Below are positions 23,881 through 40,725 of a stretch of DNA of 64,000 bases, piece after piece. Position numbers and translations under genes: made by a program. Location of the stretch: the NCBI GenBank assembly GCA_927407015.1, contig CAKMJT010000008.1, forward strand, positions 1 through 64,000, read 5' to 3'. How positions within the stretch are numbered: position 1 is the stretch's first letter; each line of letters starts with the position of its first letter. The notes under the pieces were generated by a model. It was not told the origin of the DNA. It saw only the letters and a list, made by a program, of their open reading frames with translations, and ran no database searches. Source of the DNA: an uncultured Proteiniphilum sp. Lineage in GTDB: Bacteria > Bacteroidota > Bacteroidia > Bacteroidales > Dysgonomonadaceae.

Positions 23881-23894
23881 TGCATACGATTGCA
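23881..23894 (+). promoter_or_regulatory. Candidate LacI-type operator upstream of the MFS transporter gene
   Basis: TGCATACGATTGCA is a 14-bp dyad with 5 of 7 matching positions per half and a central CG. It agrees at 12 of 14 positions with the perfect palindrome upstream of susC. It ends 54 bp before the TATATTTG box at 23949. Confidence 0.65.
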
Positions 23895-23948
23895 CAAATA
23901 AATAGATTTCTTTGCACCACAGGATGGTCATTGCTTCCGATAGGGTGG

Positions 23949-23956
23949 TATATTTG
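23949..23956 (+). promoter_or_regulatory. -7 box (TATATTTG) of the transporter promoter
   Basis: It matches TAnnTTTG exactly and would start transcription about 45 bp before the transporter ATG. There is no TTTG at the expected -33 position, consistent with a promoter that needs an activator. Confidence 0.6.
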
Positions 23957-24005
23957 CTCCACTTAAATAAACCTAAATCATCACAATCATAGAGAGTAAT
24001 CTGAC

Positions 24006-25538
24006 ATGAAGAAAAGACATTTATCCTTTTGGGAGATATGGAATATGAGTTTCGGATTTCTGGGTATACAGTTTGGCTTTGCCTTGCAAAATGCAAATGT
24101 CAGCCGTATTTTTGAGACCCTGGGTGCCCGCGTCGAGGACATCCCGATCCTGTGGATTGCCGCTCCCATCACAGGGCTGATCATACAACCCATCATCGGA
24201 CACCTGAGCGATAATACCTGGAACCGTTTTGGCCGTCGTCGCCCCTATTTCATGATCGGGGCTATCCTGACCACGCTGGCTCTCTTTCTCATGCCCAACT
24301 CACCATCGCTCTGGATCGCCGCCGGCATGCTCTGGATCATGGACGGCTCCATCAATATCTCCATGGAGCCTTTCAGGGCTTTTGTAGGTGACAACCTCCC
24401 CTCTGAACAGCGAACCATGGGTTTTGCCATGCAGAGTTTCTTTATCGGTACAGGAGCTGTGATTGCTTCTGCATTGCCCTATATCCTCACCAACTGGTTC
24501 GGTGTCTCCAATACGGCAGCCGAGGGACTGATCCCTCAATCGGTGAAGCTGTCGTTCTATATCGGTGCCGTCGTACTCTTCCTGTCGGTGCTCTACACCG
24601 TGCTCACCTCGAAAGAGTACTCCCCGGAAGAACTGACCGCCTTCGAGGAGGAGAAAGTGAAAACAACCGGATTGAGAGCGGTCATAAGAGTACCGGTAAG
24701 CTCGGCACAGTTTTTAAGGAATGGGGTGATATGGACCCTTGCGGGGGTTGTTGCCACGTCGCTGATTCTGCTCTCCTCTTTGGGTGACCAGAACGGTCAA
24801 CTCTATATCGTTGCGGGTTTATTACTGGTTTTCGGCCTTATTTTATTGCTCTCGGGATGGATGACAAGACATTCTTCTGTGCCAAACGGGATGGTGGGTA
24901 TCATGAACGATCTGCTGCATATGCCCAAAACGATGGGTCAGCTGGCAGTGGTTCAGTTTTTCTCCTGGCTCGCCTTCTATGCCATGTGGATCTATACCAC
25001 CCCGGCTATCACGCAGCATGTATACGGAACGACTGACTCCACCACCGAGCTCTACAACCAGGGTGCCAACTGGGTTGGTGTACTGTTCGCCGTTTATAAC
25101 GGTGTCTCTGCACTGAGTGCCTTCCTCTTGCCGGTTATTGCAAGGCAGATCGGAAGGAAAGCAACCCACGCCACTGCCCTTGCGATGGGAGGTGTGGCAT
25201 TCATCGCCCTCTTCTTTATCAAAGAACCGACCATGCTGCTCCTGCCTATGGTTGGCGTAGGCTTTGCCTGGGGCAGCATCCTCTCCATGCCCTATGCCAT
25301 CCTCACCGGTGCGTTGCCGGCCGATAAAATGGGAACCTACATGGGCATTTTCAATTTCTTTATCGTGATACCCCAGATTCTGGCTGCCAGCATACTGGGA
25401 TATATCACCAGCCACCTTTTTCACGGTCAGGTAATCCTTACGCTGGTCCTCGCCGGATGCTCTCTGATCCTGGGTGCTCTCAGTGTTTTCCAGGTGGAAG
25501 ACAAAGATGATATGTACAAACGCAGAAAAAGAAAGTGA
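24006..25538 (+). CDS. SLC45-type MFS sugar (maltose-type) transporter
   Basis: The 510-residue integral membrane protein has about 12 hydrophobic segments. It begins MKKRHLSFWEIWNMSFGFLG and carries GHLSDNTWNRFGRRRPYF at 65-82, the signature of glycoside-pentoside or SLC45-like H+/sugar symporters. Such transporters sit in Bacteroidetes alpha-glucan loci and carry maltose or maltooligosaccharides over the inner membrane after SusC import. An insertion around 205-250 forms a cytoplasmic loop between halves. It follows the LacI-type regulator and its candidate operator, and precedes a GH13 lipoprotein. Confidence 0.9.
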   Translation: MKKRHLSFWEIWNMSFGFLGIQFGFALQNANVSRIFETLGARVEDIPILWIAAPITGLIIQPIIGHLSDNTWNRFGRRRPYFMIGAILTTLALFLMPNSPSLWIAAGMLWIMDGSINISMEPFRAFVGDNLPSEQRTMGFAMQSFFIGTGAVIASALPYILTNWFGVSNTAAEGLIPQSVKLSFYIGAVVLFLSVLYTVLTSKEYSPEELTAFEEEKVKTTGLRAVIRVPVSSAQFLRNGVIWTLAGVVATSLILLSSLGDQNGQLYIVAGLLLVFGLILLLSGWMTRHSSVPNGMVGIMNDLLHMPKTMGQLAVVQFFSWLAFYAMWIYTTPAITQHVYGTTDSTTELYNQGANWVGVLFAVYNGVSALSAFLLPVIARQIGRKATHATALAMGGVAFIALFFIKEPTMLLLPMVGVGFAWGSILSMPYAILTGALPADKMGTYMGIFNFFIVIPQILAASILGYITSHLFHGQVILTLVLAGCSLILGALSVFQVEDKDDMYKRRKRK

Positions 25539-25675
25539 ATCGAAGCCACCGGTATGCAGGAGAACCCTTTGCCGCGTCACCGATGATCGAAGCGAATGAC
25601 TGTAAAAAATAAATACCGTACCGGCGGGTTATTCCGCGAAGCGGGAAAAAGAACCATTGAAACCAATTACGCATA

Positions 25676-27031
25676 ATGAAAAAGATAATTCTCTTATCCG
25701 TAACACTGTCCATACTGTTATCCTGTGGCAATCAAAAAGACAATCAACAGGAAGTCAACAGCTCCGGAAACGGGCATCCCGAATGGGTATACAATGCGGT
25801 GATCTACGAGGTGAACATCCGCCAGTACACCCCTGAAGGTACCTTCCGCGCTTTTTCCGAACAGTTGCCCCGCCTGAAGGAGCTGGGTGTCGACATCCTT
25901 TGGTTGATGCCGGTTCAGCCCATCGGGGAGAAGGATCGCAAAGGAAACCTGGGAAGCTATTATTCCATCCGCGATTACACCGGGGTGAACAGTGAGTTCG
26001 GTACGCTGGACGATTTCAGAGTGCTGGTGCAGGAAGCCCGGGAGATGGGGATGAAGGTCATTCTCGACTGGGTGGCAAACCATACTTCCCGCGACGCCGT
26101 ATGGGTGGAAGCCCATCCTGACTGGTATGTGAGAGATAGTCTGGGTAACCTTAATATTATGTACGACTGGACCGATATAGCCCAGGTGGATTACACAAAA
26201 CCGGAGATGCGGGCAGCGATGATCGAGGCAATGATGTTCTGGGTCCGGGAGGCTGATATCGATGGCTTTCGCTGCGATGTCGCCGGTGAAATACCGACTG
26301 ATTTCTGGGAAGAAGCCAAAGATTCTCTGACAGCTTTAAAATCCGGCCTCTTCCTGCTGGCAGAGGCGGAGAAACCGGAGCTGAACGAATCGGTGTTCGA
26401 TGCCTTTTATGCCTGGGATTTTCATCACAGGATGAATCTGGTGGCTCAGGGCAAGGAGAATGTCGATTCGCTCCGTCACTCACTGGACAGGATGATGGAT
26501 CGTTTCTCACCCGACGCCATACCAATGTTTTTCACCTCTAACCACGACGAGAATTCATGGAGCGGTACCGAGTTCGAGCGAATGGGAGATGCCGCCCGGT
26601 CGTTCGCCGTGCTGACCTATATGCTGCCCGGTATGCCGCTGATGTACAGTGGTCAGGAGGTGGGGCTGGATCATCGGCTGGCATTCTTCGAAAAAGATTC
26701 GATCAACTGGGACGATGATCGCGGATTCAGCGATTTCTACAGCGGTCTGAACAGGATCAAACAGACGAATAGAGCATTGTCCTCTCAGGAGAGAGAAGGA
26801 GAAATGATAGAAATAGGCAATGATCAGCCAGCACGTGTCTGGTCGTTCAGGCGGTTGAACGGGGGCAACGAGGTGGTCTGCCTCTTCAATTTCAGCAAGG
26901 ATCGGGTGAAGGTGGCTTTCACTGAAATGATACCGGGTGAGAGATACGTCTCATTTCCCGATTCAGCCGAAGTCACAGCTGTGAAGGTACTGGATCTGAA
27001 ACCCTGGGAATACAGGATCTATTATAAATAG
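25676..27031 (+). CDS. GH13 alpha-amylase-family lipoprotein (451 aa)
   Basis: The precursor has a lipobox (ILLSC, Cys17). The four GH13 regions are present: DWVANH (131-136), GFRCDVAGE with nucleophile Asp201, LLAEAEKPE with acid/base Glu230, and FFTSNHDEN with Asp291. It is compact, with a short C-terminal beta domain and no carbohydrate-binding module. It would cleave alpha-1,4-glucan or oligosaccharides on the outer membrane surface or in the periplasm. It is 137 bp after the transporter gene, and its 3' end overlaps the convergent flavodoxin gene by 10 bp. Confidence 0.92.
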   Translation: MKKIILLSVTLSILLSCGNQKDNQQEVNSSGNGHPEWVYNAVIYEVNIRQYTPEGTFRAFSEQLPRLKELGVDILWLMPVQPIGEKDRKGNLGSYYSIRDYTGVNSEFGTLDDFRVLVQEAREMGMKVILDWVANHTSRDAVWVEAHPDWYVRDSLGNLNIMYDWTDIAQVDYTKPEMRAAMIEAMMFWVREADIDGFRCDVAGEIPTDFWEEAKDSLTALKSGLFLLAEAEKPELNESVFDAFYAWDFHHRMNLVAQGKENVDSLRHSLDRMMDRFSPDAIPMFFTSNHDENSWSGTEFERMGDAARSFAVLTYMLPGMPLMYSGQEVGLDHRLAFFEKDSINWDDDRGFSDFYSGLNRIKQTNRALSSQEREGEMIEIGNDQPARVWSFRRLNGGNEVVCLFNFSKDRVKVAFTEMIPGERYVSFPDSAEVTAVKVLDLKPWEYRIYYK

Positions 27032-27525
27032 GGCTTCAATGCGTCAACCCATCGGGCGATACGCTCATCGGTCAGTTCCGGTTCCGTATCCTCATCAAGC
27101 GGCAGGCCGACGAACACGTCATTTACCAGTGCCCTGGAATATTCGAAGTCATACCCTTCGGGAGAGACTGCTCCAATGATGGTCGCCCCTTTTTTTGAGA
27201 CGATCTCATAGAGGATACCCATCGCATCCACAAAAGAGCTGGGATAGATGGAGGCATCACCCATTCCGAAGAGGGCTACTGTTTTTCCCGAGAGATCGAG
27301 CTTCTCCAGCTTGGGATAGAAATCATTCCAGTCGTCCTGCAAATCCTGCACACCCCAGGTAGATACGCCCATAATCAGCACATCGTGGGTAAGAAAAGGT
27401 CTTTCATCACCATCATAAATATCCACCAGGGTGGGAGCATAGTCGGCCAGCTGTTCAGCTATTTTCTCTGCGGCCGTTTTGGTATGTTCTGTACTCGATC
27501 CGTAAATGATTGCTATTGACTTCAT
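27022..27525 (-). CDS. fldA: Flavodoxin
   Basis: The 167-residue protein is read from the ATG at 27525 (MKSIAIIYGSSTEHTKTAAE), preferred because it begins at beta strand 1. The FMN phosphate loop is GSSTEHTKTA, with MGVSTWGVQDLQDDWNDFY and LFGMGDASIYPSSFVDAMG as the isoalloxazine loops. It is a long-chain flavodoxin and an electron carrier that replaces ferredoxin under iron limitation. TATCTTTG at 27553-27560 on the minus strand is a probable -7 box. It is functionally unrelated to the flanking glycan genes. Confidence 0.92.
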   Translation of the reverse strand: MKSIAIIYGSSTEHTKTAAEKIAEQLADYAPTLVDIYDGDERPFLTHDVLIMGVSTWGVQDLQDDWNDFYPKLEKLDLSGKTVALFGMGDASIYPSSFVDAMGILYEIVSKKGATIIGAVSPEGYDFEYSRALVNDVFVGLPLDEDTEPELTDERIARWVDALKPYL

Positions 27526-27597
27526 ATGATTTATTTTGCTGTGTTTATACCGCAAAGATAATATAAGTTTTAACACAGCCAGCAGGATGAGCTGTAA

Positions 27598-27633: not shown

Positions 27634-27660
27634 CATGTGAAGCGGTTCATTGCTAACGGG

Positions 27661-30018
27661 TCAGGGTGCAAATGTGGTATACATTTTGAAGCTGTTGGCC
27701 GGAACGGAGATGCTCATTGTTGTAGTTGACACCTCGAGCGTCTCAGACGGGTTCATATAGTTATACCATTCTCCTGTTTTGGGGAAAGTAGTGGTTGCAG
27801 TGAAATCAGCATTGGTGAAATTCCCTGTTACCACCACCTGCTTCGCGTTGCCGAACGATGAGAGGGTGATAAAGCGGCCACTGTCCCAAAATGAGGGTGT
27901 CACCTGCCAGTTGAGTGTGGCAGTGGCGTTGAACAGCTCGGGATGATCGCGTCGCAGATCAAAAAGCGCTGCATAGGTGTCATAGAGCTGTTTGCGCTCT
28001 GGAACAGTGTAATAGTCCCATTTAATTGGTTTGCGTCCTGTGCGACCGTTTTCTTCGATAGAAACATCATATCCCAGTTCACCGAACTGCCACACCATCT
28101 TCGGGCCGGGAACGGTGAAGAAGAAGGCGGCATTTGTTCCCAGTTGTGACATTCGCGCTCCCAGGTCGGTTTTTAAAATTCCGTTGCCCCATTGTATCTG
28201 CTTGTAAGCAGCCCGTTCCTCGTCGTGACTCTCCATATAACTGACTTGAATGTGCTTCGGGTAGGTAGTATTCCAATAATAGTTGCTTGAAAGGTCCGAC
28301 CCTTCCTTATAACCCATTGCAGTCTGACAATACTCGTTATTCAGCTTATGCCAGACCATCATTCCTGCATCACCCAACTCTTTTTCTTCCGATGCTTCTG
28401 CGAAATGCTCGAGGATCACCAGTGCATCCGGTTTCTCTGCTTTAATAGCGTTGTTGTAATCTTTCAGAATCGCAATGCGCGATGCGTCGTAATTACCGGC
28501 AGTTGACTCCGTTGATTGCTCTTGTGTGAATCCCTTGGTGAGATCGAACCGGAAGCCGTCGATGTTGTACTCATCCAGCAGGAACTGCAGGTTGCGTTTT
28601 ACAAAGTTACGTACCAGCTCTGATTCATGATTAAAATCGTGAAAGACGGAGTAAGGGTGGGGTGCATCTACATTAAAATAGGGGTTGTTATCGGCTGTTT
28701 TATTGGTTGCACCATTCCACCACATCTTGGCAAAGGGGTTGGCTCCGGTGGCGTGGTTATAGACCACGTCAAGAATCACCGCCATGCCTCTTTTGTGACA
28801 CTCATCGATAAACTCTTTGTACATCCGGTCGGTGCCGTAGGCTTTGTCCATGGCGAAGAAGAACGCAGGATTGTATCCCCAGCTATCGTTGCCGTCGAAC
28901 TCCTGCACAGGCATCAGCTCGATGGCATTCACGCCGAGCGACTGCAGGTAGTCCAGCTTCTCCATCTTTTCCATCGCTCCGTAGATGTCGCCACTTTCCG
29001 TGAAGTCGCGCAGCAGCAATTCATAGATCACCAGATTGTCACGCGACGGTACCTGGAAATCGGGGATTTGCCAGTTAAATGTCTCTTGCTGAATCCTGAA
29101 AACAGAAACCATCCCAATCGCTCCCTCAGGGTAGGTCATGTTCTCCGGAGGATAGGTGGCAGCAGAGATGTATTTGTCGTTTTCCGGATCCAGCACCTTG
29201 CGGGCGTAGGGGTCGGCCACACGGATGGGATCCTTGCCTGTGTTGCCCAGGTAGTACTGGAAAGCATACTCTTTCGCCGGGTCGAGACCGGTGAGGGTAA
29301 TCCACCAGCAACCAGCAGATTGGTCCCAGGTCATTTGTGAGTTGGACTCATTGCTCAATGTCCAGTTATTGAAGTCTCCTACCACATGGGCGAAATCTTT
29401 CCGCGCACCATACTTGTCCTTGTCGTACAGTACCAGTGTTACGGTGCTGTTGTCAACCATATTGATGCCATGCTGCAGTCCCGCAGGCATGGTACCTGTC
29501 TTGATGGCTCCCGGCTGGAACGGTTTGTATTTACTGTCGGTGATATTTTCAATAAAGGAGTCGTTTTCAATTCCTTTCTTAGTGCCGTCAGCACTCCGGA
29601 TCACGATGCCGATCCTGTTGACCGGTGTCTCGCCGGAACCAAACCATTGGCGGATGGATGGTGAGAGCTTGATGCTCCAGGTGGAAGGCTCATCTGCCAC
29701 CTTTGTCATTTTACATTTGGTGATGTTCTCATTCCACTCTGCCGGAACATACATCCAGGTTCCTTCGCTCACCACGCCGATATGGATATAGACATCGCCG
29801 GTGTAGTTGTACAGCGCGGAGTTTGAAGCAGCCTTGAACCAGATGGTCAGCTCCTTGTCGGCATCCACTTCTTCAGGACTCCAGGAGAGTCCCTCGCTGA
29901 TGGTGACCGGTTGTTCCGGTTTAGGTTCCGGTTTCGGTGTCACCACCGGGTCATCGCCGCAGGAGATTGCGAAGAGGAGCAGCAAGAGGTAGAGAAGGCT
30001 TTTTATGGGATCTTTCAT
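27661..30018 (-). CDS. Large GH13 lipoprotein with N-terminal binding domains (SusG-like role)
   Basis: The 785-residue precursor has a lipobox (FAISC, Cys20) and a Pro-Glu-Lys linker (25-38). A beta domain spans about 40-165, then a CBM48-like domain at about 190-290 (HVVGDFNNWT at 211-220). The catalytic barrel runs from about 325, with DVVYNH (417-422), GFRFDLTKG with Asp492, VILEHF with Glu537 and MESHDEER with Asp599. The CBM48 pairing suggests a pullulanase or branched-glucan amylase. With SusC-F on the same strand it probably fills the surface-amylase role of SusG. It is the last gene of the sus operon. Confidence 0.88.
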   Translation of the reverse strand: MKDPIKSLLYLLLLLFAISCGDDPVVTPKPEPKPEQPVTISEGLSWSPEEVDADKELTIWFKAASNSALYNYTGDVYIHIGVVSEGTWMYVPAEWNENITKCKMTKVADEPSTWSIKLSPSIRQWFGSGETPVNRIGIVIRSADGTKKGIENDSFIENITDSKYKPFQPGAIKTGTMPAGLQHGINMVDNSTVTLVLYDKDKYGARKDFAHVVGDFNNWTLSNESNSQMTWDQSAGCWWITLTGLDPAKEYAFQYYLGNTGKDPIRVADPYARKVLDPENDKYISAATYPPENMTYPEGAIGMVSVFRIQQETFNWQIPDFQVPSRDNLVIYELLLRDFTESGDIYGAMEKMEKLDYLQSLGVNAIELMPVQEFDGNDSWGYNPAFFFAMDKAYGTDRMYKEFIDECHKRGMAVILDVVYNHATGANPFAKMWWNGATNKTADNNPYFNVDAPHPYSVFHDFNHESELVRNFVKRNLQFLLDEYNIDGFRFDLTKGFTQEQSTESTAGNYDASRIAILKDYNNAIKAEKPDALVILEHFAEASEEKELGDAGMMVWHKLNNEYCQTAMGYKEGSDLSSNYYWNTTYPKHIQVSYMESHDEERAAYKQIQWGNGILKTDLGARMSQLGTNAAFFFTVPGPKMVWQFGELGYDVSIEENGRTGRKPIKWDYYTVPERKQLYDTYAALFDLRRDHPELFNATATLNWQVTPSFWDSGRFITLSSFGNAKQVVVTGNFTNADFTATTTFPKTGEWYNYMNPSETLEVSTTTMSISVPANSFKMYTTFAP

Positions 30019-30068: not shown

Positions 30069-31895
30069 TTATTCCAACAGCAGCACCTCTTTGGGAGAAA
30101 GGGTCAGCGTTTCAACCAGGGTGATGGTTTTACCGGTAAGAAAATCCTTTGCACTGCTCCATCCTTGTATAGACTCTGCATAACGGTCAAGGTTTATTTC
30201 CACCTCTTTTGATGTCCCGTTCATGAATACCAGCACCTTTTTGTCACCCAGGAAGCGCTCATAGACGTAAACACCTTTCTGCAGCACATAGTGCTTCATG
30301 CCGCCGCGGGCGATCACCTCGTTGCCCTGCCGCCAGTGCAGCAGCTTGCTGAGGAAGTCGAACGCCTCGTTCTGGATTGCATCACGTCCTTCAGTCGTGA
30401 ACTGGTTTGTTTTATCACCAGGCCAGCCTCCCGGTACATCGCGACGGATGTCACCGTCGCTGCGGCTCTTGTTGCCGTGCATCAGCAATTCCGTGCCGTA
30501 GTAGATCTGCGGCGTGCCGGGCATGGTGAGCAGGAAGGTGATCGCCTGCTTCCAGCCGGAGAGCTCCTTAGGATATTCTTTCAGAAAACGGTCGGTATCG
30601 TGGTTGTCGAGGAAACGCAGCACATTGGATATGTCGGGATAGATGAAATCGTAGGTCATATGGTCGTAGATACCGTGCAATCCGCCGTTCCATTCGGTGG
30701 TCTCTTCGAAGAAAGCATTATGCGAAAGACCCATGAAGCGGAAGTCCATCACCGTCTTTAATTTAGTATTGTACGGATTCAGGGGACTGTCTTTCTGCCA
30801 GAAGGCTGTCCCAATGGGATTGTTGAGCCAAGCCTCACCAACGATATTGTATTGGGGGTATTCTTTCTCCACCGCCTCAATCCAGTCCACCATCATGTCA
30901 TAGTCGGCATAGGGATAGGTATCCTGCCGTATACCGTCCACACCGGAATATTCGATCCACCAGATACTGTTCTGGATGAGGTATTTCGCCACATGGCGGT
31001 TGCGCTGGTTCAGGTCGGGCATGGTAGGTACAAACCAGCCGTCTACCATCCTGCTCTTGTCGAATTCCGAAGCATAGGGGTCGAAATACATCTCTTTCAT
31101 ATGGGAGGTCTGCACATACTCATCCAGGTTGTTGAACCAGTCGGGTGAAGGAACATCCTTCAGCCAGGGATGATCGCTGCCGCAGTGGTTGAAGATCATG
31201 TCCATCACCACCTTCATCCCTTTGCCATGGGCGTCGCTGATCAGGTTCTTGTACTCTTCATTGCTGCCGAAGCGGGGATCCACACGGTAGTAGTCGGTGG
31301 TGGCGTAGCCATGGTAGGAGCCTCCCTCCATGTCGTTTTCCAGCACCGGGTTGAGCCATATAGCCGTCACCCCCAGGTCGAAAAGGTAGTCCAGCCTGTC
31401 GGAGATACCCTTCAGGTCACCGCCGTGGCGGGCATTGGGGTCCTCCCGGTCCACCTTGTATGGCATCTTCATGGCTATCTGGTCGTTCGACGGATCACCA
31501 TTGGCGAAACGATCGGGCATGATCAGGTAGAGCACATCGGAGGAGCCGAAGCTTTCGATCGCCAGCCGTTCAGAGTTGCGTTCCTTCAGTTCATAGGGCA
31601 GGGTGAACTTTTTCATCCCACTGGTGAGGATCAGATTGAATGTCTCAGGTGCCGCCTTGGAAAGGTCCAGGTAGATCAGCAGATAGTTGGGGCTCTGCAG
31701 GGTGACCACCTCTTTGATGGTGATGTTTTTGGATGAAACGGCGGGTGTGTAGGCAGCGATATTTTCACCGCTCACCATCAGCTGAAGTTCTGTCTCCTGC
31801 ATGCCGCTCCACCAATAAGCCGGATCGATGCTCACCTGTTGTGCCTGCAAGAGAGAAGTGATAAATATAAATGATAGGAGTATTGTTTTTTTCAT
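30069..31895 (-). CDS. susA: SusA-like GH13 neopullulanase/cyclomaltodextrinase
   Basis: The 608-residue protein has a Sec signal peptide (cleaved near LLQAQ, residue 19) without a lipobox, so it is periplasmic. An N-terminal beta domain (20-110) of cyclomaltodextrinase type precedes the barrel. Catalytic regions are DMIFNHCGSDH (232-242), GIRQDTYPY with Asp325, IVGEAW with Glu354 and FLDNHDTDR with Asp433. Length and layout closely match B. thetaiotaomicron SusA (617 residues), which degrades imported maltooligosaccharides. It is followed 50 bp later by the large GH13 gene. Confidence 0.9.
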   Translation of the reverse strand: MKKTILLSFIFITSLLQAQQVSIDPAYWWSGMQETELQLMVSGENIAAYTPAVSSKNITIKEVVTLQSPNYLLIYLDLSKAAPETFNLILTSGMKKFTLPYELKERNSERLAIESFGSSDVLYLIMPDRFANGDPSNDQIAMKMPYKVDREDPNARHGGDLKGISDRLDYLFDLGVTAIWLNPVLENDMEGGSYHGYATTDYYRVDPRFGSNEEYKNLISDAHGKGMKVVMDMIFNHCGSDHPWLKDVPSPDWFNNLDEYVQTSHMKEMYFDPYASEFDKSRMVDGWFVPTMPDLNQRNRHVAKYLIQNSIWWIEYSGVDGIRQDTYPYADYDMMVDWIEAVEKEYPQYNIVGEAWLNNPIGTAFWQKDSPLNPYNTKLKTVMDFRFMGLSHNAFFEETTEWNGGLHGIYDHMTYDFIYPDISNVLRFLDNHDTDRFLKEYPKELSGWKQAITFLLTMPGTPQIYYGTELLMHGNKSRSDGDIRRDVPGGWPGDKTNQFTTEGRDAIQNEAFDFLSKLLHWRQGNEVIARGGMKHYVLQKGVYVYERFLGDKKVLVFMNGTSKEVEINLDRYAESIQGWSSAKDFLTGKTITLVETLTLSPKEVLLLE

Positions 31896-31968: not shown

Positions 31969-33003
31969 TTATTCAATAAAAGCATCGAGTGCTTTGGTCG
32001 GGCGGCCGTCGTTGCCCCAGGCACTGAGTGCATAACGACTCCACGAACGGGCACCCTGCGGTTCCCAGTATAAGACACCCAACCCTTTGCCGTCGGGGAC
32101 CTCCTTCACTTTCCGGATCACCGCACGAAGCATCTCATAGGTGTTCTGTGGCTTGCTGTCTTCACCACCCACTTCCACTACCATCACCTCTTTGTTGTAA
32201 CGGCTGGCCATATCGTTCAGGTTGAAGCCCAGGTCGTCGATGATCTCACTGTAGTCTGGTTTGTCTTCCAGCCAGTAGGGGTAGAACGACATACCGATGA
32301 TATCATATTTAGCTCCCTGTTTCTCCGCATTGTCAAACCACCAGCGAAAACGTTCATTGTTGTTGCCCTGATCCACATGCAGGATCACCTTGCTGGCGGG
32401 ACTGACCTCCTTGATGGCATCGTAGCCACTGTTGATCAGTTGAACGAGCTGAGGCCAGTTGTCGGTATGTCCTTCCGGATGAATCATGCCGGAAGGAATC
32501 TCATTACCCACCTGCACCCATTCGGGTGTTACTCCGGCCTCTTTCAAAGCAGTCATCACACTTTTGGTGTAATCATACAACGCCTCTTTGAGTTGTTCGA
32601 AGGAAAGGCCTTCCCACTCTTTGGGCTTATGCTGCTTGCCCGGGTCGGCCCAGCTGTCGCTGTAATGCAGGTTGATCATCACCTGCATGCCCCATTCCTT
32701 TGCCCGTTTGGCCATGGCAACCGTCTCGCCGGTGCTGCAGTGTCCGCTGAAGGGGTCATCGGATGGGTTCACCCAGGTACGCAGGCGGATGGCATTGATG
32801 CCGTGATCTTTCAGGATCTTGAAACAATCTTCTGCTTCCCCCCGGTCGTTGTAAAAGGTATATCCGCTTTGTTCCATCTGTGGCAGCCAGCTGATGTCGG
32901 CTCCCCGCACAAAGGAGGTGTCACTGCTCTCCGTCTCCGTCGTGTGCTGACAGGAGAGAAGAAGAAACAGCAGTGACAGACAGAAATAAACGGTTCTTTG
33001 CAT
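31969..33003 (-). CDS. GH53 endo-beta-1,4-galactanase lipoprotein
   Basis: The 344-residue precursor is read from the ATG at 33003, which gives MQRTVYFCLSLLFLLLSC with lipobox Cys18. A start 26 codons earlier would bury the signal. The family segments are FVRGADISWLPQMEQSG, INAIRLRTWVNP, VMINLHYSDSWADPGKQ, VQVGNEI with acid/base Glu168 and VMVVEVGGE with nucleophile Glu277. GH53 enzymes cleave beta-1,4-galactan side chains of pectin. Its place between susF and susA in an alpha-glucan operon is unusual. No GH2 or GH42 beta-galactosidase is visible nearby to finish galactan breakdown. Confidence 0.9.
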   Translation of the reverse strand: MQRTVYFCLSLLFLLLSCQHTTETESSDTSFVRGADISWLPQMEQSGYTFYNDRGEAEDCFKILKDHGINAIRLRTWVNPSDDPFSGHCSTGETVAMAKRAKEWGMQVMINLHYSDSWADPGKQHKPKEWEGLSFEQLKEALYDYTKSVMTALKEAGVTPEWVQVGNEIPSGMIHPEGHTDNWPQLVQLINSGYDAIKEVSPASKVILHVDQGNNNERFRWWFDNAEKQGAKYDIIGMSFYPYWLEDKPDYSEIIDDLGFNLNDMASRYNKEVMVVEVGGEDSKPQNTYEMLRAVIRKVKEVPDGKGLGVLYWEPQGARSWSRYALSAWGNDGRPTKALDAFIE

Positions 33004-33071
33004 ACAATGATTTTTTGTGTGACTTGTCATGATCCATTTTTCCGATGGATCGCATGCCGGTTTATACAGAT

Positions 33072-33103
33072 GGAAAAGCACGGCACTGGTGCCGCGCTTT
33101 TCC
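33072..33103 (-). promoter_or_regulatory. Intercistronic hairpin between susF and the GH53 gene
   Basis: Arms 33072-33086 and 33089-33103 pair over 15 positions with one mismatch. It starts 11 bp after the susF stop. A second dyad (GATCCAT 33031-33037 with ATGGATC 33045-33051) follows. These may lower readthrough into the enzyme genes or mark a processing site. Confidence 0.6.
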
Positions 33104-33114
33104 GATGAGATGCT

Positions 33115-34539
33115 CTATTGTTTTGTCATTGTGGCTTTAAACTGACTGGAGTCAGACAGATCGAGGGTGATCAGGTAAGTGCCTGCCTCTGCCACGGAAA
33201 TATTATCCCCGCCATAGCCAAGGTTGTTCATGGCACCACCCAGGTTGATATCCCAACCGTTGTTGGCCCGGAACTTGAAGCTGCCACTTCCCAGTGAGGC
33301 GGTAACACTCCAGAGTCCGGTAACCGGATCATAGGTCATTGGTGTGGAGGTATCCCAGCCACCGGCTGTGGCATCACCAATCAATCCCCATTCGGTTTTC
33401 ACCATCGTATAGACAGGACTTCCCGAGAGATCCACGTTTATTTTGTACATGCCTGCTTCGTCTACCTTCAGGTTGCCTCCTGCAGTGGAGAGAGTACCGC
33501 CTCCGCCGTCACCGTAGTTGGTGCCACTCCAGCTGGGTTCTGTTGTGAATTTGAACTCAGTTCCTGCCGCTCCGAAGTATACATACCCGTCATACTTGAA
33601 GTCGAAATTGCGGTTGTAGAGTGTGGGTGCCGTAGCGGGATCCCATCCCTGATGACCACCGGGCACATAGAGTGTCAGGTTCATCTCGCCGATCAACTCG
33701 ATGGTGTAGGTGTATTCCATCATGTTGAGGGTGATTTTCACCCATCCCAGTTCAGTCACGCGCATGGCCTGCGCTCCTTCCAGGATGATATCTCCTTCCA
33801 GGGCGGTATTGCCATCCACCGGATTGCCCAGTACGCCATCCCACGAGGCTGCATCCTTACTCGATTTGGGCACAATCTTGAAGTATCCCGTCACATTATT
33901 GACCAGGATGGTGAAGATGGGGTCTTCATAGACATCCTTGCCGCTGTGGCTGAACTGGTAAGCTGCCAGATCATTGATATTCCATCCGTTGATATCGCCA
34001 ATCAGGTAGTACTCCGTCTCAATCACCGGCCCTACAGGTGTCACGGTGACCGGTCCCAGTACAATGGGTGTGGGTATCTGTGTCGAAGATGTTCCGTCAA
34101 CGATATAATAGGTAGCACGCAGATAAATGGTGCGGGCGTTGGGTGCTTTCCCGTAGAGGCTTTTAACCGCTTCATTCAGGTCGGCAGCAGTCACGGTTGC
34201 TGTATTCTGATCACTGGTAGCAGGGAGTGCCACTGCTGTGGTAAAATCCTGTGTCGCTGATGCCTCTACCATGAATTTCACGGCGGCACCTTCGGCCAGT
34301 GCCGGTGTGGCAGTAGTCTTGATCGCTTCCAGTGGTGTTTCTGCTTCGAGCTTTTCTTCCGTCAAAACAACAGGAGTGCTGAGCCCCGATCCCAGGGCAA
34401 AGGTAAATCCGGTAACCGTTTGTGCGGCCTCCTGCTCATACGCTTGTGGCGGAGCGGCTACATGGTCGTACACATCCTCACATGCATTCATCAGGATGAA
34501 AGCAAGCAGTGTGGCAAATAGGTATGTTATTTTTTTCAT
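33115..34539 (-). CDS. susF: SusF-like surface starch-binding lipoprotein
   Basis: The 474-residue lipoprotein (MNAC lipobox, Cys20) has an N-terminal Ig-like SusE domain (about 25-170) and then three tandem beta modules. They begin near YYLIGDINGWNINDL, LTLYVPGGHQGWDPAT and WGLIGDATAGGWDTST, each with the conserved aromatic used to stack on maltooligosaccharide. The last module ends at the C-terminus (FKATMTKQ). SusF-type proteins are not enzymes; they hold starch at the cell surface. It lies between susE and GH53 and is flanked by hairpins on both sides. Confidence 0.87.
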   Translation of the reverse strand: MKKITYLFATLLAFILMNACEDVYDHVAAPPQAYEQEAAQTVTGFTFALGSGLSTPVVLTEEKLEAETPLEAIKTTATPALAEGAAVKFMVEASATQDFTTAVALPATSDQNTATVTAADLNEAVKSLYGKAPNARTIYLRATYYIVDGTSSTQIPTPIVLGPVTVTPVGPVIETEYYLIGDINGWNINDLAAYQFSHSGKDVYEDPIFTILVNNVTGYFKIVPKSSKDAASWDGVLGNPVDGNTALEGDIILEGAQAMRVTELGWVKITLNMMEYTYTIELIGEMNLTLYVPGGHQGWDPATAPTLYNRNFDFKYDGYVYFGAAGTEFKFTTEPSWSGTNYGDGGGGTLSTAGGNLKVDEAGMYKINVDLSGSPVYTMVKTEWGLIGDATAGGWDTSTPMTYDPVTGLWSVTASLGSGSFKFRANNGWDINLGGAMNNLGYGGDNISVAEAGTYLITLDLSDSSQFKATMTKQ

Positions 34540-34557
34540 GTTGTGTAATATTTTAAT

Positions 34558-34589
34558 GGAAAACCTCTCTCCTCTGAAAGAGGTTTTCC
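34558..34589 (-). promoter_or_regulatory. Intercistronic hairpin between susE and susF
   Basis: An 11-bp perfect stem (GGAAAACCTCT at 34558-34568 with its complement at 34579-34589) closes a 10-nt loop, 12 bp after the susE stop and 18 bp before the susF start. It resembles a weak terminator or RNA-stability element. Confidence 0.6.
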
Positions 34590-34601
34590 GGTTCTGCCTG
34601 T

Positions 34602-35744
34602 TTATTCAATCTTGCCTGTCCTTGCGGTAAAGTTTATATAAAGACGCTGGCCTGCATTGCCGGTTACACGCTCCTGGTCATCACCTGCGCCGCGGGGAAT
34701 GAAGACACCGTTGAATACCAGGAATTCGGTATGCCACCACTCCTGTCCCGGCAGCTTAATGCTGGCGCGCACTTCACCTGTGTTCGTGAAAGCAGGGGAG
34801 ACAAAGGAAGCATCAGCTCCCAGAGAGAGGGCCGGCACTGTAAAACGATACTTTTCATCCGTAGTATCCCAGTTGCCTCCGGCCGTTTGTCCCTGCAGCT
34901 GCACATTTGGCGGATAGAAATCGACCGCATAGTCATAGTCACGTCCATTGATGGTGGTTGTCACCACAGCAATGTACCATCCCGGATTCCCGATGCCGAA
35001 ATTACCGCCTGCGTCGGTGACGCCCGCCAGTGTGGCTGACTCTGCGCCGAGGGTTGCCTGGCCAAAGCCAAACTCGTTTCCGTCCCACGCCTTGGCGGTG
35101 TTGAATTTGATTTGTGCATTATCGCCGTCACCGGTCTTTCCCAGGTACTGCATCGCCCAGAATTTGCCGGGGGTACCCCATACGGGAATCATTTCAGTAG
35201 CTCCGTCCCAGCTCCAGTTACCGGCCACATTGCCTATAAGATACATGTTCTCCGGCATCACCATCGGATCGAGTGCAAAGTAACCTTTCACCTGCGGGAG
35301 GGTGATCACATTGGAATAAACCTGTCCCACATTCTTTTCGTTCAGTTTGGAGGAGAGGCGAACATAGAGCGGGTGCGGATCAGCAGGGTATGCACTCTCG
35401 TCGGTGATACCATGCATGCCGACCAGTGCCAGTGCCAGATCGGCAGCGTTGATCGCGAATTTCGCCGTGGTATAGCTGCCGGGCAGTGTCACATAATCCG
35501 CAAAATCGTTCGTGAGAGATACCTCTACACTGTAGATGGCTACCGCGGTAAAGCCATAATCGGGTTGTGACGTGGTGAACTCAATGGTTTCCGTGTTCTT
35601 CAGGTCGTAAATACCTGAGGCATATTTCGGCACGTTGAGCACGAAGCTCTCCGGCTGCTGCAGCACAACGTTTTCATCCTCCTGGCACGACCAGCATAGT
35701 CCGAGAAAGGCCAGCAGTACTATGATATTATATGTTTTCTTCAT
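34602..35744 (-). CDS. susE: SusE-like outer membrane starch-binding lipoprotein
   Basis: The 380-residue precursor is read from the ATG at 35744 (MKKTYNIIVLLAFLGLCWSC, lipobox Cys20). Residues about 25-165 form the SusE Ig-like domain (NTETIEFTTSQPDYGFTAVA). Two carbohydrate-binding beta modules follow, with MYLIGNVAGNWSWDGATEMI as the first binding strand and AGGNWDTTDEKYRF in the second. It ends LYINFTARTGKIE. It is one module shorter than the SusF-like protein. The order susC-D-E-F is conserved with B. thetaiotaomicron. Confidence 0.87.
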   Translation of the reverse strand: MKKTYNIIVLLAFLGLCWSCQEDENVVLQQPESFVLNVPKYASGIYDLKNTETIEFTTSQPDYGFTAVAIYSVEVSLTNDFADYVTLPGSYTTAKFAINAADLALALVGMHGITDESAYPADPHPLYVRLSSKLNEKNVGQVYSNVITLPQVKGYFALDPMVMPENMYLIGNVAGNWSWDGATEMIPVWGTPGKFWAMQYLGKTGDGDNAQIKFNTAKAWDGNEFGFGQATLGAESATLAGVTDAGGNFGIGNPGWYIAVVTTTINGRDYDYAVDFYPPNVQLQGQTAGGNWDTTDEKYRFTVPALSLGADASFVSPAFTNTGEVRASIKLPGQEWWHTEFLVFNGVFIPRGAGDDQERVTGNAGQRLYINFTARTGKIE

Positions 35745-35778
35745 CGTTTCTTCTTTTAGAAATTCATTGTATAACAAA

Positions 35779-37404
35779 TCAATAACCGGTGTTTTGTACC
35801 AGGTTTATGTTGGCTCCCAGGTCGTCTGCCGGTATAGGGAATACATTGAGATAGCTCTCCACGGCTCGTCCTTCAGGTACATTTCCTTTCCAGGGCCAGA
35901 GATAGGAGGATCCGGCAAGCTTGCCGAAACGAACCAGGTCGGTACGACGTTGTGCCTCATAGAAGAATTCACGTCCTCTCTCATCCAGGATATAGTCCAG
36001 CGTAAGCTCTCCCGCTGTAATGGCAGCAGCATTGTCATCGCTGTAAGAGCGTTTGCGCAGGTTATTCACCAGCTGCAGTGCTGTTGCTGCATCACCGCCT
36101 GTACCACCGCGCAACACCGCTTCGGCATAATTGAGATAGATCTCACCCAGACGGAAAAGTGGGAAATCGGTGAAGGCAATATTGCTGGGGGGGAGTGTGC
36201 CGTCGCTGTTACGGTTGTAATATTTCACCACAGGAATACCGTTGTTGGTAAAGAGGGATGGATCCACGATCTCCACGTTTTCGGTATAATCGAGACGCAG
36301 CATGGAGAAGCGGCTGTCGGCTTCATGCTGATACTCGCGTTCAAAGGTTCTCAGCAGGGCGCTGGTGGCGCGGTTACCCTGCCATGCTCCCACAGCATTC
36401 ACCTCAGCCTGCAAATCGGAAGGTTCCGTCGAACTGAGCAGGAAGGTCATCCCTCCCCAGGTCTGTGTATCTTCACCTTCATAGCGGATAGGGAAAATGA
36501 TCTCTGCAGATTTGTGGTTGTCCGCCTTGAATACATTGGCATAGACCGGATCAAGCAGGTAATTCACAGCCATCACCTTCTTACTGTAGGTAATGCTTTC
36601 AGTATATTTTTTTACACCTATATAGGTCTCAGCATTCAGGTAGAGACGGGAGAGCAGCGCCCAGTTGGCCGCTTTGTGTGCGCGTCCGTAGTTGGTTGTA
36701 TTGTAACCCACAAACGGGTCGAGCATATCTGGTTCGCAGGCAATCAGCTCTTTTTCGATGTAGTCGAACAGGTCGGCAGCCATGATCTGAGGGGGAAGTG
36801 TGCTTCCCACTGGGCTCTCTTCGTTGACGAAAGGTACGTTCCTGAACATATCGAGCAGATAGTAGTAAGCCAGCGCACGTTGAAAACGGGCTTCAGCCCT
36901 GTAGCTGACAATCTCGGCCTGATCGGCCGCGCTTACCCCTCTGCTGTTTAACACCTCTTCCGTCGTCTCTCTCAAAAAAGCGTTGGCCAGGTTAATCTGG
37001 TAGTAGAGACGATAGTAGAAACCCTTGATAAATACATTACTTGCTGACCAGGTGTTGTAGTTCAGGTCGGGAATACCCACATCGTTCCAGGCGCAGTGTG
37101 CCTCATCGGTGGGCAGTTGCTGCAGGTTCCACAGTCCTCGCAGGAAGGATGCCTGGCTACCGCCATCCACACCCGCCACGTCGGGGTCGCCATCACCGCC
37201 GCTGTTGCCGCTGATGGCCAGTCCTGCATAAATCTTAGCCAGCAGTTCCTGGTAAGGCCCAATTTCACTTCCGAATACTACATCCGATACCAGCTCTTCC
37301 TTGTCGAGCGGTATGGTGTTCAGATCGTCCACACAGGATGAGACACCTCCGGTCATCAGGCTGAGCAGTACGAACAATAGAATAGTATATTTAGCTGTTT
37401 TCAT
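35779..37404 (-). CDS. susD: SusD-like starch-binding outer membrane lipoprotein
   Basis: The 541-residue precursor is read from the ATG at 37404 (MKTAKYTILLFVLLSLMTGG, lipobox VSSC). SusD/RagB landmarks are VDDLNTIPLDKEE near the N-terminus, AEARFQRALAYYYLLDMFRN (TPR helix), FPLFRLGEIYLNYAEAVLRG, and DERGREFFYEAQRRTDLVRF close to the end. SusD forms the lid on the SusC barrel and binds the helical starch chain. It is encoded directly after susC with a gap of about 100 bp. Confidence 0.95.
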   Translation of the reverse strand: MKTAKYTILLFVLLSLMTGGVSSCVDDLNTIPLDKEELVSDVVFGSEIGPYQELLAKIYAGLAISGNSGGDGDPDVAGVDGGSQASFLRGLWNLQQLPTDEAHCAWNDVGIPDLNYNTWSASNVFIKGFYYRLYYQINLANAFLRETTEEVLNSRGVSAADQAEIVSYRAEARFQRALAYYYLLDMFRNVPFVNEESPVGSTLPPQIMAADLFDYIEKELIACEPDMLDPFVGYNTTNYGRAHKAANWALLSRLYLNAETYIGVKKYTESITYSKKVMAVNYLLDPVYANVFKADNHKSAEIIFPIRYEGEDTQTWGGMTFLLSSTEPSDLQAEVNAVGAWQGNRATSALLRTFEREYQHEADSRFSMLRLDYTENVEIVDPSLFTNNGIPVVKYYNRNSDGTLPPSNIAFTDFPLFRLGEIYLNYAEAVLRGGTGGDAATALQLVNNLRKRSYSDDNAAAITAGELTLDYILDERGREFFYEAQRRTDLVRFGKLAGSSYLWPWKGNVPEGRAVESYLNVFPIPADDLGANINLVQNTGY

Positions 37405-37510
37405 ACGAAAATATTTTATTTTTTTCATTAAGGTGATGAAACGTGGACTGAGTGTCGAAACCTACTTGCTTCATTTTACATTCATGCCCGTTTCACCGAT
37501 CTTTCAGGAA

Positions 37511-40500
37511 TTAAAAATTTAAATTAAGTCCCAGAATGAATACACGTGGGTGCGGATAGATGTTATTGTCTATACCGTTATTGGTAAATTCAGGGTCGAG
37601 GCCGTCATATTTCGTGATAACAAAAGGATTTTGTACCGTGAAATGGATCCTGCCGGATTGCGGGTTGTTCAGCAGATGGGTAAAGTTGTAACCCAATGAG
37701 ATGTTATCCATCTTCAGGAAGGACGCATTCTGGATGTAATGGCTCGATTGATACTGCACTGCTTCGAAATTGGTGAAGGTGGCACTGTTTACCCTGTTCT
37801 TCAGCCACCCGGAGGGGTCGAAAGTGGTGTTTTTCGATTGTCGGTTCGACTGGATATTGTTATAGGCATAGTTGCCTATGTTGCCGCGTAAGGAGAAGTT
37901 GAAATCCCAGTTCCTGTAGGATAGCTGAGAGGACAATCCCATGTAAACGTCCGGAGCCGCATTTTTATAGACGATCAGGTCATTCTCATTGATGGCACCA
38001 TCGGCGTTCTGGTCGACATATACGCCTTCAACCGGCCTGCCTTCCTCGTTGTAAACCTGCTCGTACACATAAAATGAACCGGCCGGATAATTGACTGCAT
38101 GGATGGCAATGTTATTGCCCGTGCCACCATCGATGCCACCAAAACGTACCCCTACATAGTTGGGATCATCGTTGATGGTCAGTTTGGTGATTCTGTTCTG
38201 GTTATACGTCACATTGTAGCTCAGGTTCCAGTTCCAGTCCCTGCTGACTACCGGACGTCCCGTGATGGTGAACTCAACTCCTTTGTTCTCCAGCTCACCC
38301 ACGTTGGTGAGCAACTGGTTGCTGAAGTTGGTTCCCGCAGCGATACCAACGGTATTCAGCAAGTCTGTGGTCTTGCGATAGTAAACATCAAAGGCACCAC
38401 TGATGCGGTTGTTCAGGAAACCGTAGTCGAGACCGGCGTTATAGGTGGCTGTCTCCTCCCATTTCAGGTTCTCGTCATACGCCAGCGGGCGAATGAGTGA
38501 AATCATCTGATCGCCAAAGAAATAGTTGGCTCCTGCCTGGCTGTAACTGTATCGTCCCATCCAGGGGTAATCACCGCTGCCCAGGTTCTGTTGTCCTGTC
38601 ACACCGTAACCTAAGCGCAGTTTCAGGTCGGACATCACCCCGCCGGCATCAGCCATGAATGGCTCGTTGATAATTTTCCAGGCGAAAGCAGCCGACGGAA
38701 AAAGACCCCATTTGTTGTCGGGACTGAATCGGGATGAGCCGTCGTTTCTCAATGTGAGTGTCAGTAAGTAACGGTCCAGAAGTGCGTAGTTCAAACGGCC
38801 AAAGAAGGAGACCACGAAGCTCTCTGTAGAGTAATCGTTGCCGTCCCTGTAGTACGCATTTCCAGTCTCGGCAGCCTTGGCGGCCGAATAGGGATAGGTG
38901 TTGTCCGATTCATTGTAGAACCGTTGCCAGGAATAACCACCCATGACATCGAAGCGATGGATGTCCAGATCCCTGGCATAATTCAGATAAAAATCGAGCA
39001 GGGTGTTGCTCTTGTACTGGCTGTAAGTGGAATTTTCGCCCCAACCCGATTTAAAACTGCCCCAGGTATAGCTCATCGGTGAGTTGTCCTCAATGATCAC
39101 ATCCCCCTCACTTTTGGAAATATCATATCCTACGTTGAGGTTGGCTCTCAGTTCTTCCAGGAACGGCATCCTGTAATCAAGTTGTATGTTGCCAATACTG
39201 CGCATAACTTCTGAGTTGTCATGTTTTTGCATCAGAATGGCGAGCGGATTGGACAGTGCAATGTCGATGGGTGTTCCGTCAGGTTTCAGTGTCATATGAT
39301 AACCATTGCCATAGGCAGAAGGTGTTGCTGCATAGACCGGCATAGTGGGGTCAAACTGGGTAGCCGAGTTGATCGCTCCCTGGTCTGCAAAACGGTTGGT
39401 GTTGTACATCCCCCTGGCGTTCAGCTGTACCCTGAGCTGATCATCAAAGAAGCTGGGAGAGAGATTCACGCTGCCGGTATACCTTTCCAGATTGGACGTT
39501 CTCAGGATACCGTTTTCATTGGTGTATCCCACAGATACACGATAGGGCAGTATCTCCGCTGCCGTGCCGGATACACTCAGGTTATGGTCTGTGCTGGCAG
39601 CTGCTCTGTAGAAGATCTTATCCTGCCAGTTGGTCTCGGTATTACCCAATGCGGTTGCCTGCTGGCTATCTTCGCCAAAGGAGCTGATCACATAGTTTCT
39701 GAACGTGGGGGCATCCATCACGTCTACTGCGCCTGTACGGGTACTTACCGAGAAGTTGCCGTTGTACGAGATTTTAGCGGCGCCGCCCGCACCTTTCTTG
39801 GTAGTGATGATAATAACACCGTTGGAAGCGCGGGACCCATAAATGGCAGTTGCCGAAGCATCTTTCAATACGGTAAAGGTCTCGATGTCGTTTGAATTGA
39901 TGGTGCTCAATGGATTGGACATCCCGCTTACACCCGTGGCGTTATCCACCGGTACACCGTCGATCACGATCAGCGGATCGTTACTGGCCGACATGGAGGA
40001 ACCACCACGAATACGGATGCTGGCAGCCGATCCCGGAGCTCCACCCGACGATACAATGCTCAGACCGGCCACTTTCCCTGCCAGCAGATCGGACGGGGAG
40101 GTTGCCAGCCCTCTGTTCAGCCTAGTGGCATCCACCGCCACGACAGAGCCTGTAGCGTCATCTTTCCGCACGCTACCATAACCAATCACCACCAGTTCTT
40201 CCAGTAACTCAGTGTCTTCTTCCATCACAATCCGGATGTTTGTTCTGTTGTTGATGGAAATAGTCTGGGGTCTGTAGCCAATGTAGCTTATCTCCAGCAC
40301 ACCGTCAGCCGGCGCCTGCAGCATGAAGTTGCCGTCATAATCGGTCACTGTCCCCGATGAGGTTCCCTGTAACAGAATGTTGGCGCCAATAATGGGTTCA
40401 CCGCCGCTGTCCGTCACCGTTCCCCGTACATTTATCGTCGTGCCTGTCTGGGCACTGACCGATAAAACCATTAGCATACCCGATAACACCGTCATCAGGA

Positions 40501-40534
40501 AAGCTTTCCTGTTTTTTTTCAAATTTAAATGCAT
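37511..40534 (-). CDS. susC: SusC-like TonB-dependent alpha-glucan transporter
   Basis: The 1007-residue precursor has a signal peptide (MTVLSGMLMVLSVSAQ), then a carboxypeptidase D regulatory-like domain (VRGTVTDSGGEPIIGANILL). A TonB-box region (ELLEELVVIGYGSVRKDDAT) and plug (SIRIRGGSSMSASNDPLIVI) follow, and the barrel ends with an aromatic residue (ILGLNLNF). It imports maltooligosaccharides through the outer membrane with SusD as lid. It is the first gene of the minus-strand operon, with a 5' leader of about 110 nt carrying a hairpin and an operator-like palindrome upstream. Confidence 0.95.
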   Translation of the reverse strand: MHLNLKKNRKAFLMTVLSGMLMVLSVSAQTGTTINVRGTVTDSGGEPIIGANILLQGTSSGTVTDYDGNFMLQAPADGVLEISYIGYRPQTISINNRTNIRIVMEEDTELLEELVVIGYGSVRKDDATGSVVAVDATRLNRGLATSPSDLLAGKVAGLSIVSSGGAPGSAASIRIRGGSSMSASNDPLIVIDGVPVDNATGVSGMSNPLSTINSNDIETFTVLKDASATAIYGSRASNGVIIITTKKGAGGAAKISYNGNFSVSTRTGAVDVMDAPTFRNYVISSFGEDSQQATALGNTETNWQDKIFYRAAASTDHNLSVSGTAAEILPYRVSVGYTNENGILRTSNLERYTGSVNLSPSFFDDQLRVQLNARGMYNTNRFADQGAINSATQFDPTMPVYAATPSAYGNGYHMTLKPDGTPIDIALSNPLAILMQKHDNSEVMRSIGNIQLDYRMPFLEELRANLNVGYDISKSEGDVIIEDNSPMSYTWGSFKSGWGENSTYSQYKSNTLLDFYLNYARDLDIHRFDVMGGYSWQRFYNESDNTYPYSAAKAAETGNAYYRDGNDYSTESFVVSFFGRLNYALLDRYLLTLTLRNDGSSRFSPDNKWGLFPSAAFAWKIINEPFMADAGGVMSDLKLRLGYGVTGQQNLGSGDYPWMGRYSYSQAGANYFFGDQMISLIRPLAYDENLKWEETATYNAGLDYGFLNNRISGAFDVYYRKTTDLLNTVGIAAGTNFSNQLLTNVGELENKGVEFTITGRPVVSRDWNWNLSYNVTYNQNRITKLTINDDPNYVGVRFGGIDGGTGNNIAIHAVNYPAGSFYVYEQVYNEEGRPVEGVYVDQNADGAINENDLIVYKNAAPDVYMGLSSQLSYRNWDFNFSLRGNIGNYAYNNIQSNRQSKNTTFDPSGWLKNRVNSATFTNFEAVQYQSSHYIQNASFLKMDNISLGYNFTHLLNNPQSGRIHFTVQNPFVITKYDGLDPEFTNNGIDNNIYPHPRVFILGLNLNF

Positions 40535-40600
40535 TTTTTGTTAACGTTATAAGATTAACTGATTAATACTCTCTTTATTCTCTATAAATGACAGAAACGG

Positions 40601-40628
40601 TACAATGAAAGGTTAATTTTTCATTGTA
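40601..40628 (-). promoter_or_regulatory. Stem-loop in the susC leader
   Basis: TACAATGAAA (40601-40610) pairs perfectly with TTTCATTGTA (40619-40628) around an 8-nt loop. On the predicted transcript it lies about 15-45 nt after the start and about 65 nt before the ATG. It may stabilise the mRNA or act as a control element. Confidence 0.5.
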
Positions 40629-40649
40629 TCATTCCCTCCGCTAATGGCA

Positions 40650-40657
40650 CAAAGTTA
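40650..40657 (-). promoter_or_regulatory. -7 box (TAACTTTG) of the susC promoter
   Basis: On the minus strand TAACTTTG matches TAnnTTTG. The predicted start is near 40644, giving a leader of about 110 nt. No TTTG lies at the -33 position; a T-run occurs further upstream instead. Confidence 0.6.
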
Positions 40658-40711
40658 AATGAACCTGGAGGGTATGGTGCTGAAAAAGGTGGTTTTAACC
40701 TCCTTCGCCTG

Positions 40712-40725
40712 TGCAATCGATTGCA
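40712..40725 (-). promoter_or_regulatory. Perfect palindromic LacI-type operator upstream of susC
   Basis: TGCAATCGATTGCA is a perfect 14-bp palindrome with central CG, the typical shape of LacI-family sites. Its promoter-side edge is exactly 54 bp from the TAACTTTG box, the same spacing as at the transporter promoter. The site is centred near -73, outside the polymerase footprint, so activation or looping fits better than simple blockage. Confidence 0.7.

Follow-up and report, generated by a model that had tools for sequence, protein, structure and literature searches.

What protein recognises two matching palindromes in front of distant promoters of an alpha-glucan locus, and to what effect, is the question raised by the 64,000-nucleotide stretch of DNA analysed here (the window), which comes from an uncultured Proteiniphilum sp. 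(contig CAKMJT010000008.1). On the plus strand, the operator-like site TGCATACGATTGCA (23881-23894) precedes the -7 box TATATTTG (23949-23956) of the promoter of an MFS sugar transporter gene. On the minus strand, the perfect palindrome TGCAATCGATTGCA (40725-40712) precedes the -7 box TAACTTTG (40657-40650) of the susC promoter. The gap is 54 bp in each case, and the site at the MFS promoter differs from the perfect palindrome in 2 of 14 bases. Both boxes are named by their agreement with the consensus TAnnTTTG, and the transcription starts are predicted from them. These two operators, two boxes and two gaps had been reported in a sequence-only reading of the window, and all of them were exact when the sequence was read again. 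A gene for a LacI-family regulator (22836-23849, plus strand, 337 amino acids) is located next to the MFS gene. It appears that a fixed-distance LacI switch serves starch-use genes in this organism and in many of its relatives, and the switch probably reaches to gut Bacteroides.

The notable feature is the palindrome together with its spacing, not the palindrome by itself. When up to 3 mismatches are allowed, the window holds no excess of the palindrome alone (4 observed against 4.6 expected), and 17 places in the genome match it with at most 2 mismatches. A third case of the complete arrangement exists in the same genome, where a gap of exactly 54 bp separates CGCAAACGTTTGCA from the following box TAGATTTG in front of malQ (around G000:C57:72291-72366, locus L177).

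Conservation of the Spacing

We searched 101 genomes of the family for TGCAnnCGnnTGCA followed, after a gap of 40-70 bp, by TAnnTTTG, and the figures given here cover 150 pairs among the matches listed. The gaps of 139 pairs fall between 53 and 56 bp, with 88 pairs at 54, 43 at 55, 6 at 56 and 2 at 53, while the other 11 are scattered. The backward control pattern produced no matches in the 101 genomes. Elsewhere its matches numbered at least 4 for the order and at least 7 for the phylum sample, which means that chance accounts for some of the background in those two sets. Gaps of 53-56 were found for 25 of the 67 pairs listed from the order outside the family (binomial p=4e-7, with chance taken as 4 of 31 gaps). 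No extension was found in the phylum sample outside the order, where 2 of the 25 pairs listed have such gaps (p=0.85).

Two further sets were used as checks. A GH77 gene (malQ) is present in 14 of the 18 genomes queried, and all 14 genes carry a site that matches at least 9 of the 10 fixed bases, with a gap of exactly 54 bp to the box, including the one on another contig of the window's own genome. Two genomes of this set, G007 and G059, were already among the listed family pairs and the other twelve are new. The second set is the genus of G263, which is probably Bacteroides because of its lacI-MFS-GH65 layout, the layout that the available part of PMC11633381 gives for B. fragilis and B. uniformis. 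LacI orthologs were found in 64 of 119 genomes of this genus, and the best 30 of the 64 loci were read, G263 itself being known beforehand through the pattern. Of these best 30, 29 have a site followed at 54-55 bp by a box on the lacI side, and in 15 the identical palindrome also faces a box on the opposite side, at 54-56 bp. Two more of the 30, L346 and L359, have a separate site at 55 bp on the side away from lacI.

On the MFS side of the LacI orthologs, 22 of 30 loci, the window included, have a site with a gap of 54-56 bp to a box. As a separate observation, the gap at the MFS promoter of G083 (L024) is 24 bp compared to 54 bp in G084 (L025), which has a closely similar site; the shift of 30 bp corresponds to about three helical turns.

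The same spacing occurs at the unrelated promoters of MFS, SusC, MalQ, phosphorylase, GH13 and LacI genes. This comparison was made with 367 sequences, which form a biased sample because many of them were fetched by the gap pattern itself. The spacers themselves have diverged, and 77 of 90 are distinct at 70% identity. The sequence-only reading had proposed looking in relatives for the palindrome before TAnnTTTG boxes near LacI, GH13 and SusC genes, and had named a lack of conservation in related genomes as one of the results that would tell against it. The family, malQ and G263-genus sets all keep the palindrome and the spacing.

Association with the LacI Gene and Target Genes

LacI orthologs (at least 50% identity) are present in 69 of the 101 family genomes. 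Sites at 53-56 bp were observed in 68 of these 69 genomes, compared to 5 of the 32 genomes without an ortholog (G007, G022, G048, G066 and G096). The Fisher p value of 2e-18 overstates the independence of these counts since the genomes are related. In a repeat search of the five genomes, a close LacI ortholog was not found. G048 is 78% complete, and the assemblies of G066 and G096 each consist of hundreds of contigs. In G007 the malQ site (L175, L327) is kept at 54 bp though a close ortholog was not found; this site may be a relic or the target of another binder, which are the only explanations that we offer. The co-occurrence of site and ortholog supports the earlier proposal that the neighbouring LacI is the predicted binding protein. 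The lacI gene itself would be a target in some other lineages; in the window, no operator-like site was found before it in 22451-22863.

Target genes were surveyed in 40 regions that we chose around listed sites, with 47 pairs at gaps of 53-56. Alpha-glucan-type genes follow 42 of the 47 pairs (SusC 15, MalQ 11, GH13 6, alpha-glucan phosphorylase 5, LacI 3 and MFS 2), and to this extent the alpha-glucan regulon proposed earlier is supported. The other five pairs precede a GH28 gene (L151), crcB and purC (L154) and an unclassified frame of 193 amino acids (L155), with no gene found in L141. According to Pfam searches of three representatives, MalQ is a GH77 4-alpha-glucanotransferase with CBM20, and the alpha-glucan phosphorylase family was confirmed on one representative. 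In L150, L152 and L153, a single palindrome serves two divergent promoters. For example, lacI-MFS-GH65 is divergent from susC-susD-susE in L150 (G263). We also observed a single palindrome with a gap of 55 bp each way in L154 (G161), between crcB, which is followed by an enolase gene, and purC, which is followed by a pyruvate kinase gene.

Promoter Position and Spacer Sequence

The available part of PMC6847099 places the T of TAnnTTTG at -12 in Flavobacterium johnsoniae and gives 4-5 nucleotides from the box to the start in probable promoters. Since this position of the T is adopted here, a gap of 54 bp puts the centre of the palindrome at -73.5, which agrees with the location near -73 given in the sequence-only reading; the start is assumed from the box position in this calculation.

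The same reading had remarked that neither promoter has a good -33 TTTG, and indeed no TTTG was found 17-21 bp before the box at either window promoter. Its use of the weak -33 as an argument for activation did not hold up, as the feature does not discriminate: only 21 of 309 control boxes have TTTG there. TTTG was found at 2 of 77 sites compared to 21 of 309 controls (p=0.28), and TTG at 6 of 77 compared to 53 of 309 (p=0.05). The -33 motif is weak in F. johnsoniae promoters generally, as far as the accessible text of PMC6847099 goes, and because of this and of the small difference from the controls, a weak -33 is uninformative here.

The spacer is A/T-rich at positions +7, +17 and +27 past the operator, where the A/T fractions in 77 non-redundant sites are 0.94, 0.97 and 0.87. 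The power of the 10-bp period in these sites is 4.86, compared to a maximum of 0.79 in 2000 shuffles. A weaker period was found in the control boxes (n=309), with a power of 1.5 at 10 and 2.0 at 10.5, and ordinary F. johnsoniae promoters also show A/T motifs at -18 and -28 in the portion of PMC6847099 at hand. The phasing fits contacts of the alpha C-terminal domain or bending, without amounting to proof of either.

Mode of Control

We consider it probable, from the arrangement of sites and genes, that this LacI is a local alpha-glucan regulator and most likely a class-I-like activator, which acts from about -73.5 through a near-fixed spacing. A LacI dimer would bind TGCAnnCGnnTGCA with its centre about 73.5 bp before the start for a gap of 54 bp, or 74.5 bp for a gap of 55 bp. 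The near-fixed spacing would hold the protein in one orientation and so allow contact with RNA polymerase, the partner most likely being the alpha C-terminal domain placed on the A/T-rich DNA between the operator and the -7 box. One palindrome would be able to serve two divergent promoters, and the putative ligand is maltose or maltodextrin. Activation is preferred because the fixed upstream distance is common to unrelated promoters, because single palindromes point both ways and because sites in blocking positions are few. The site is upstream of the promoter without overlapping it and its spacing is constrained, as in class I activation, with the start assumed from the box.

A simple blocking repressor was also considered and rejected, in agreement with the earlier suggestion of activation rather than simple repression. 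The whole-genome searches covered gaps of 9-39 and 40-70 bp and sites 0-30 bp downstream of the box; gaps of 0-8 and above 70 bp and sites lying across the box were outside the coverage. Within these ranges, the 101 family genomes gave 17 rows at gaps of 9-39 and 21 rows at 0-30 bp downstream, all scattered, and not the overlapping or just-downstream operators by which such a repressor would be recognised.

Several observations weigh against an activator of this kind. Proteins of the LacI family are usually repressors that are released from DNA on sugar binding, and GalR belongs to the LacI/GalR family. Upstream-bound GalR represses one gal promoter by polymerase contact, according to the available part of PMC4693257. 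Five genomes have sites without a close LacI ortholog, and one of them, G007, is 99% complete. On the MFS side, 8 of the 30 LacI-ortholog loci are without the exact arrangement: five are siteless (L018, L026, L032, L033 and L034), L024 has a gap of 24 bp, and L011 and L016 have a gap of 54 bp but to TATATTTA, a box that is one base off. A pair at 54-56 is present in only 36 of 79 named loci, a set obtained by protein search with distant Clostridia-type hits included; in the same set, 37 of the 41 pairs at gaps of 40-70 fall in 54-56. In the genus of G263, no box was found at 54-58 bp from the best site on the side away from lacI in 12 of the best 30 loci. In four susC promoters (L244, L261, L264 and L165) the best site is 66-68 bp from the box. 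A second, overlapping and poorer site with 6-7 of the 10 fixed bases lies 12 bp nearer in these four, at 54-56 bp, which is no more than suggestive.

It is also possible, though we regard it as unlikely, that sugar-free LacI at about -73.5 holds the polymerase inactive in a fixed geometry, as GalR does at gal P1, and that maltose releases it. Any contact with the polymerase would suit a fixed spacing, and release triggered by sugar is the usual behaviour of the family. From its upstream operator, GalR touches the alpha C-terminal domain, inhibiting P1 and stimulating P2, in the accessible part of PMC4693257. On the other hand, a repressor has blocking positions at its disposal, in which sites are few, and an equal distance to two divergent and many unrelated promoters would be an odd arrangement for it. 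Spence et al. (2006) reportedly described OsuR as activating the starch operon of B. fragilis in a maltose-dependent manner.

A helper role, in which LacI acts only with a second factor and alone neither activates nor represses, is quite improbable in our judgement. Such a factor may bind at the GTTAATTA block, which is strongly conserved 13-20 bp past the palindrome in 26 susC-type promoters of the genus; the window version, GTTAAAAC, is located at 40692-40699 on the minus strand. The 26 promoters are hand-picked rows with a gap of 54 bp taken as susC promoters, from which near-copies in G066 (second copy), G075, G079 and G081 were excluded. No dyad was found among the paired bases flanking the block in these promoters. 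Against a helper role, the block is missing from the pooled profile of 82 promoters with a gap of 54 or 55 bp, which shows only the A/T phasing.

Even less probable is that another protein, for example a paralogous LacI regulator, binds the sites. The five genomes with sites but no close ortholog would suit such a binder, and paralogs at about 36% identity exist. When compared with the near-complete presence of sites in ortholog genomes, however, only one of nine family genomes with only distant LacI matches (G022) has sites, and 5 of 20 paralog loci (L296, L297, L301, L302 and L304) carry a different, CG-ended palindrome 42-43 bp before TAnnTTTG. Chance likeness of two palindromes and two boxes, with which the lack of enrichment of the palindrome alone would agree, is ruled out by the conservation of the spacing in the family, at malQ and in the genus of G263.

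Four of the five CG-ended cases among the paralogs precede a sodium:solute symporter gene, and the paralog-locus scan placed 6 of 13 box distances at 42-43 bp, which is a small sample. In a second LacI group searched order-wide, 19 of 247 genomes matched and 11 palindromes were scorable, with no clear spacing. Paired CG-ended palindromes 31 bp apart were also seen near other LacI-family genes (L306, L308 and L310). We put forward only tentatively, as somewhat less likely than not, the idea that LacI-family regulators of Bacteroidales generally activate from a fixed hold on the promoter, which would be at about -73.5 for the alpha-glucan group and roughly one helical turn nearer (gap 42-43, about -61.5) for a paralog group with CG-ended palindromes. 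Each group would act two ways from one palindrome, and the LacI type would offer starch loci a widespread alternative to SusR that is based on activation.

Genes of the Locus

In the LacI protein, the helix-turn-helix domain (PF00356) and the periplasmic-binding-protein-like sensor domain both exceed the curated cut-off. The nearest named proteins in a protein search belong to Proteiniphilum and related metagenome-assembled genomes, followed by Fermentimonas, Petrimonas and Seramator. A library of defence proteins gave a marginal match only (E 0.0008). The MFS sugar transporter gene (24006-25538, plus strand) is followed next downstream by a gene for a GH13 alpha-amylase-family protein (25676-27031, plus strand). 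The two probably form one operon, and their order is repeated in L146, L195 and L206.

The series read from the susC promoter is on the minus strand. It starts with the SusC-like TonB-dependent transporter (37511-40534) and continues with the SusD-like protein (35779-37428), the SusE/SusF-like outer-membrane proteins (33115-35777, as 33115-34539 and 34602-35777), a GH53 family protein (31969-33081), a GH13 cyclomaltodextrinase/neopullulanase-like protein (30069-31895) and a GH13 alpha-amylase-family protein (27661-30018). GH53 is the endo-beta-1,4-galactanase family, and its presence amid alpha-glucan genes is unexpected in a starch regulon. An operator of the type described here also precedes a GH53-like frame, with gaps of 55-58 bp, in L344, L348, L351 and L357 of the genus of G263.

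Comparison with Known Systems

A literature search, with most subscription papers outside its coverage, found no recognised description of this operator or spacing. The operator followed by 54-55 bp and TAnnTTTG makes up a checkable rule that predicts alpha-glucan targets in relatives, including the probable Bacteroides genus, and it suggests that LacI-type activation is an alternative to SusR. Should activation be confirmed, a family known mainly for repression would provide a conserved architecture for activation together with the unusual sigma factor of Bacteroidota, which would be useful for understanding the response to diet and for building inducible promoters.

Among known systems, B. 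fragilis and B. uniformis have starch loci in which, according to the available part of PMC11633381, a LacI-type regulator lies beside MFS and GH65 genes without SusR; neither an operator nor a spacing or mechanism is given there. The regulator is of the same kind as here and, as L150 shows, has similar neighbours. When the window is compared with the B. fragilis type of layout, lacI and the MFS gene are adjacent, susCD is 12-17 kb away, and GH65 was found in none of the 10 proteins scanned. SusR of B. thetaiotaomicron responds to alpha-glucan and likewise controls a starch locus of the Sus type, and the LacI regulators named for that species in the same accessible text are for uronic acids (PMC3878776). 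SusR is a membrane protein with another DNA-binding domain and with direct repeats that are predicted, in the text at hand, to have centres 67 or 77 bp apart, whereas the present case has one 14-bp palindrome and a protein of the LacI type.

GalR at the E. coli gal promoters is also bound upstream and contacts the polymerase, as given in the part of PMC4693257 used here. It has two operators with opposite effects on two overlapping promoters, while here many promoters share one conserved geometry. CRP in class I activation also takes the position -72.5 and tolerates several helical positions, compared to almost one here. It is likewise an upstream-bound activator, placed at -61.5 in the source text available, and it differs from the present case in protein family and sigma factor.

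Within the LacI family, the solved structures closest by sequence to the window protein are those of CcpA (E 2.6e-43), which mediates activation as well as repression according to the available part of PMC5263246. CcpA is a global regulator in Gram-positive bacteria, while a local alpha-glucan regulon is found here. The operator is an even palindrome with a central CG, which matches the LacI-family norm in the accessible part of PMC4052901. The same text covers MalR of Firmicutes, which belongs to the same family and acts in the same sugar pathway; MalR is called a maltose repressor there, whereas the fixed upstream position of the operator here suggests activation.

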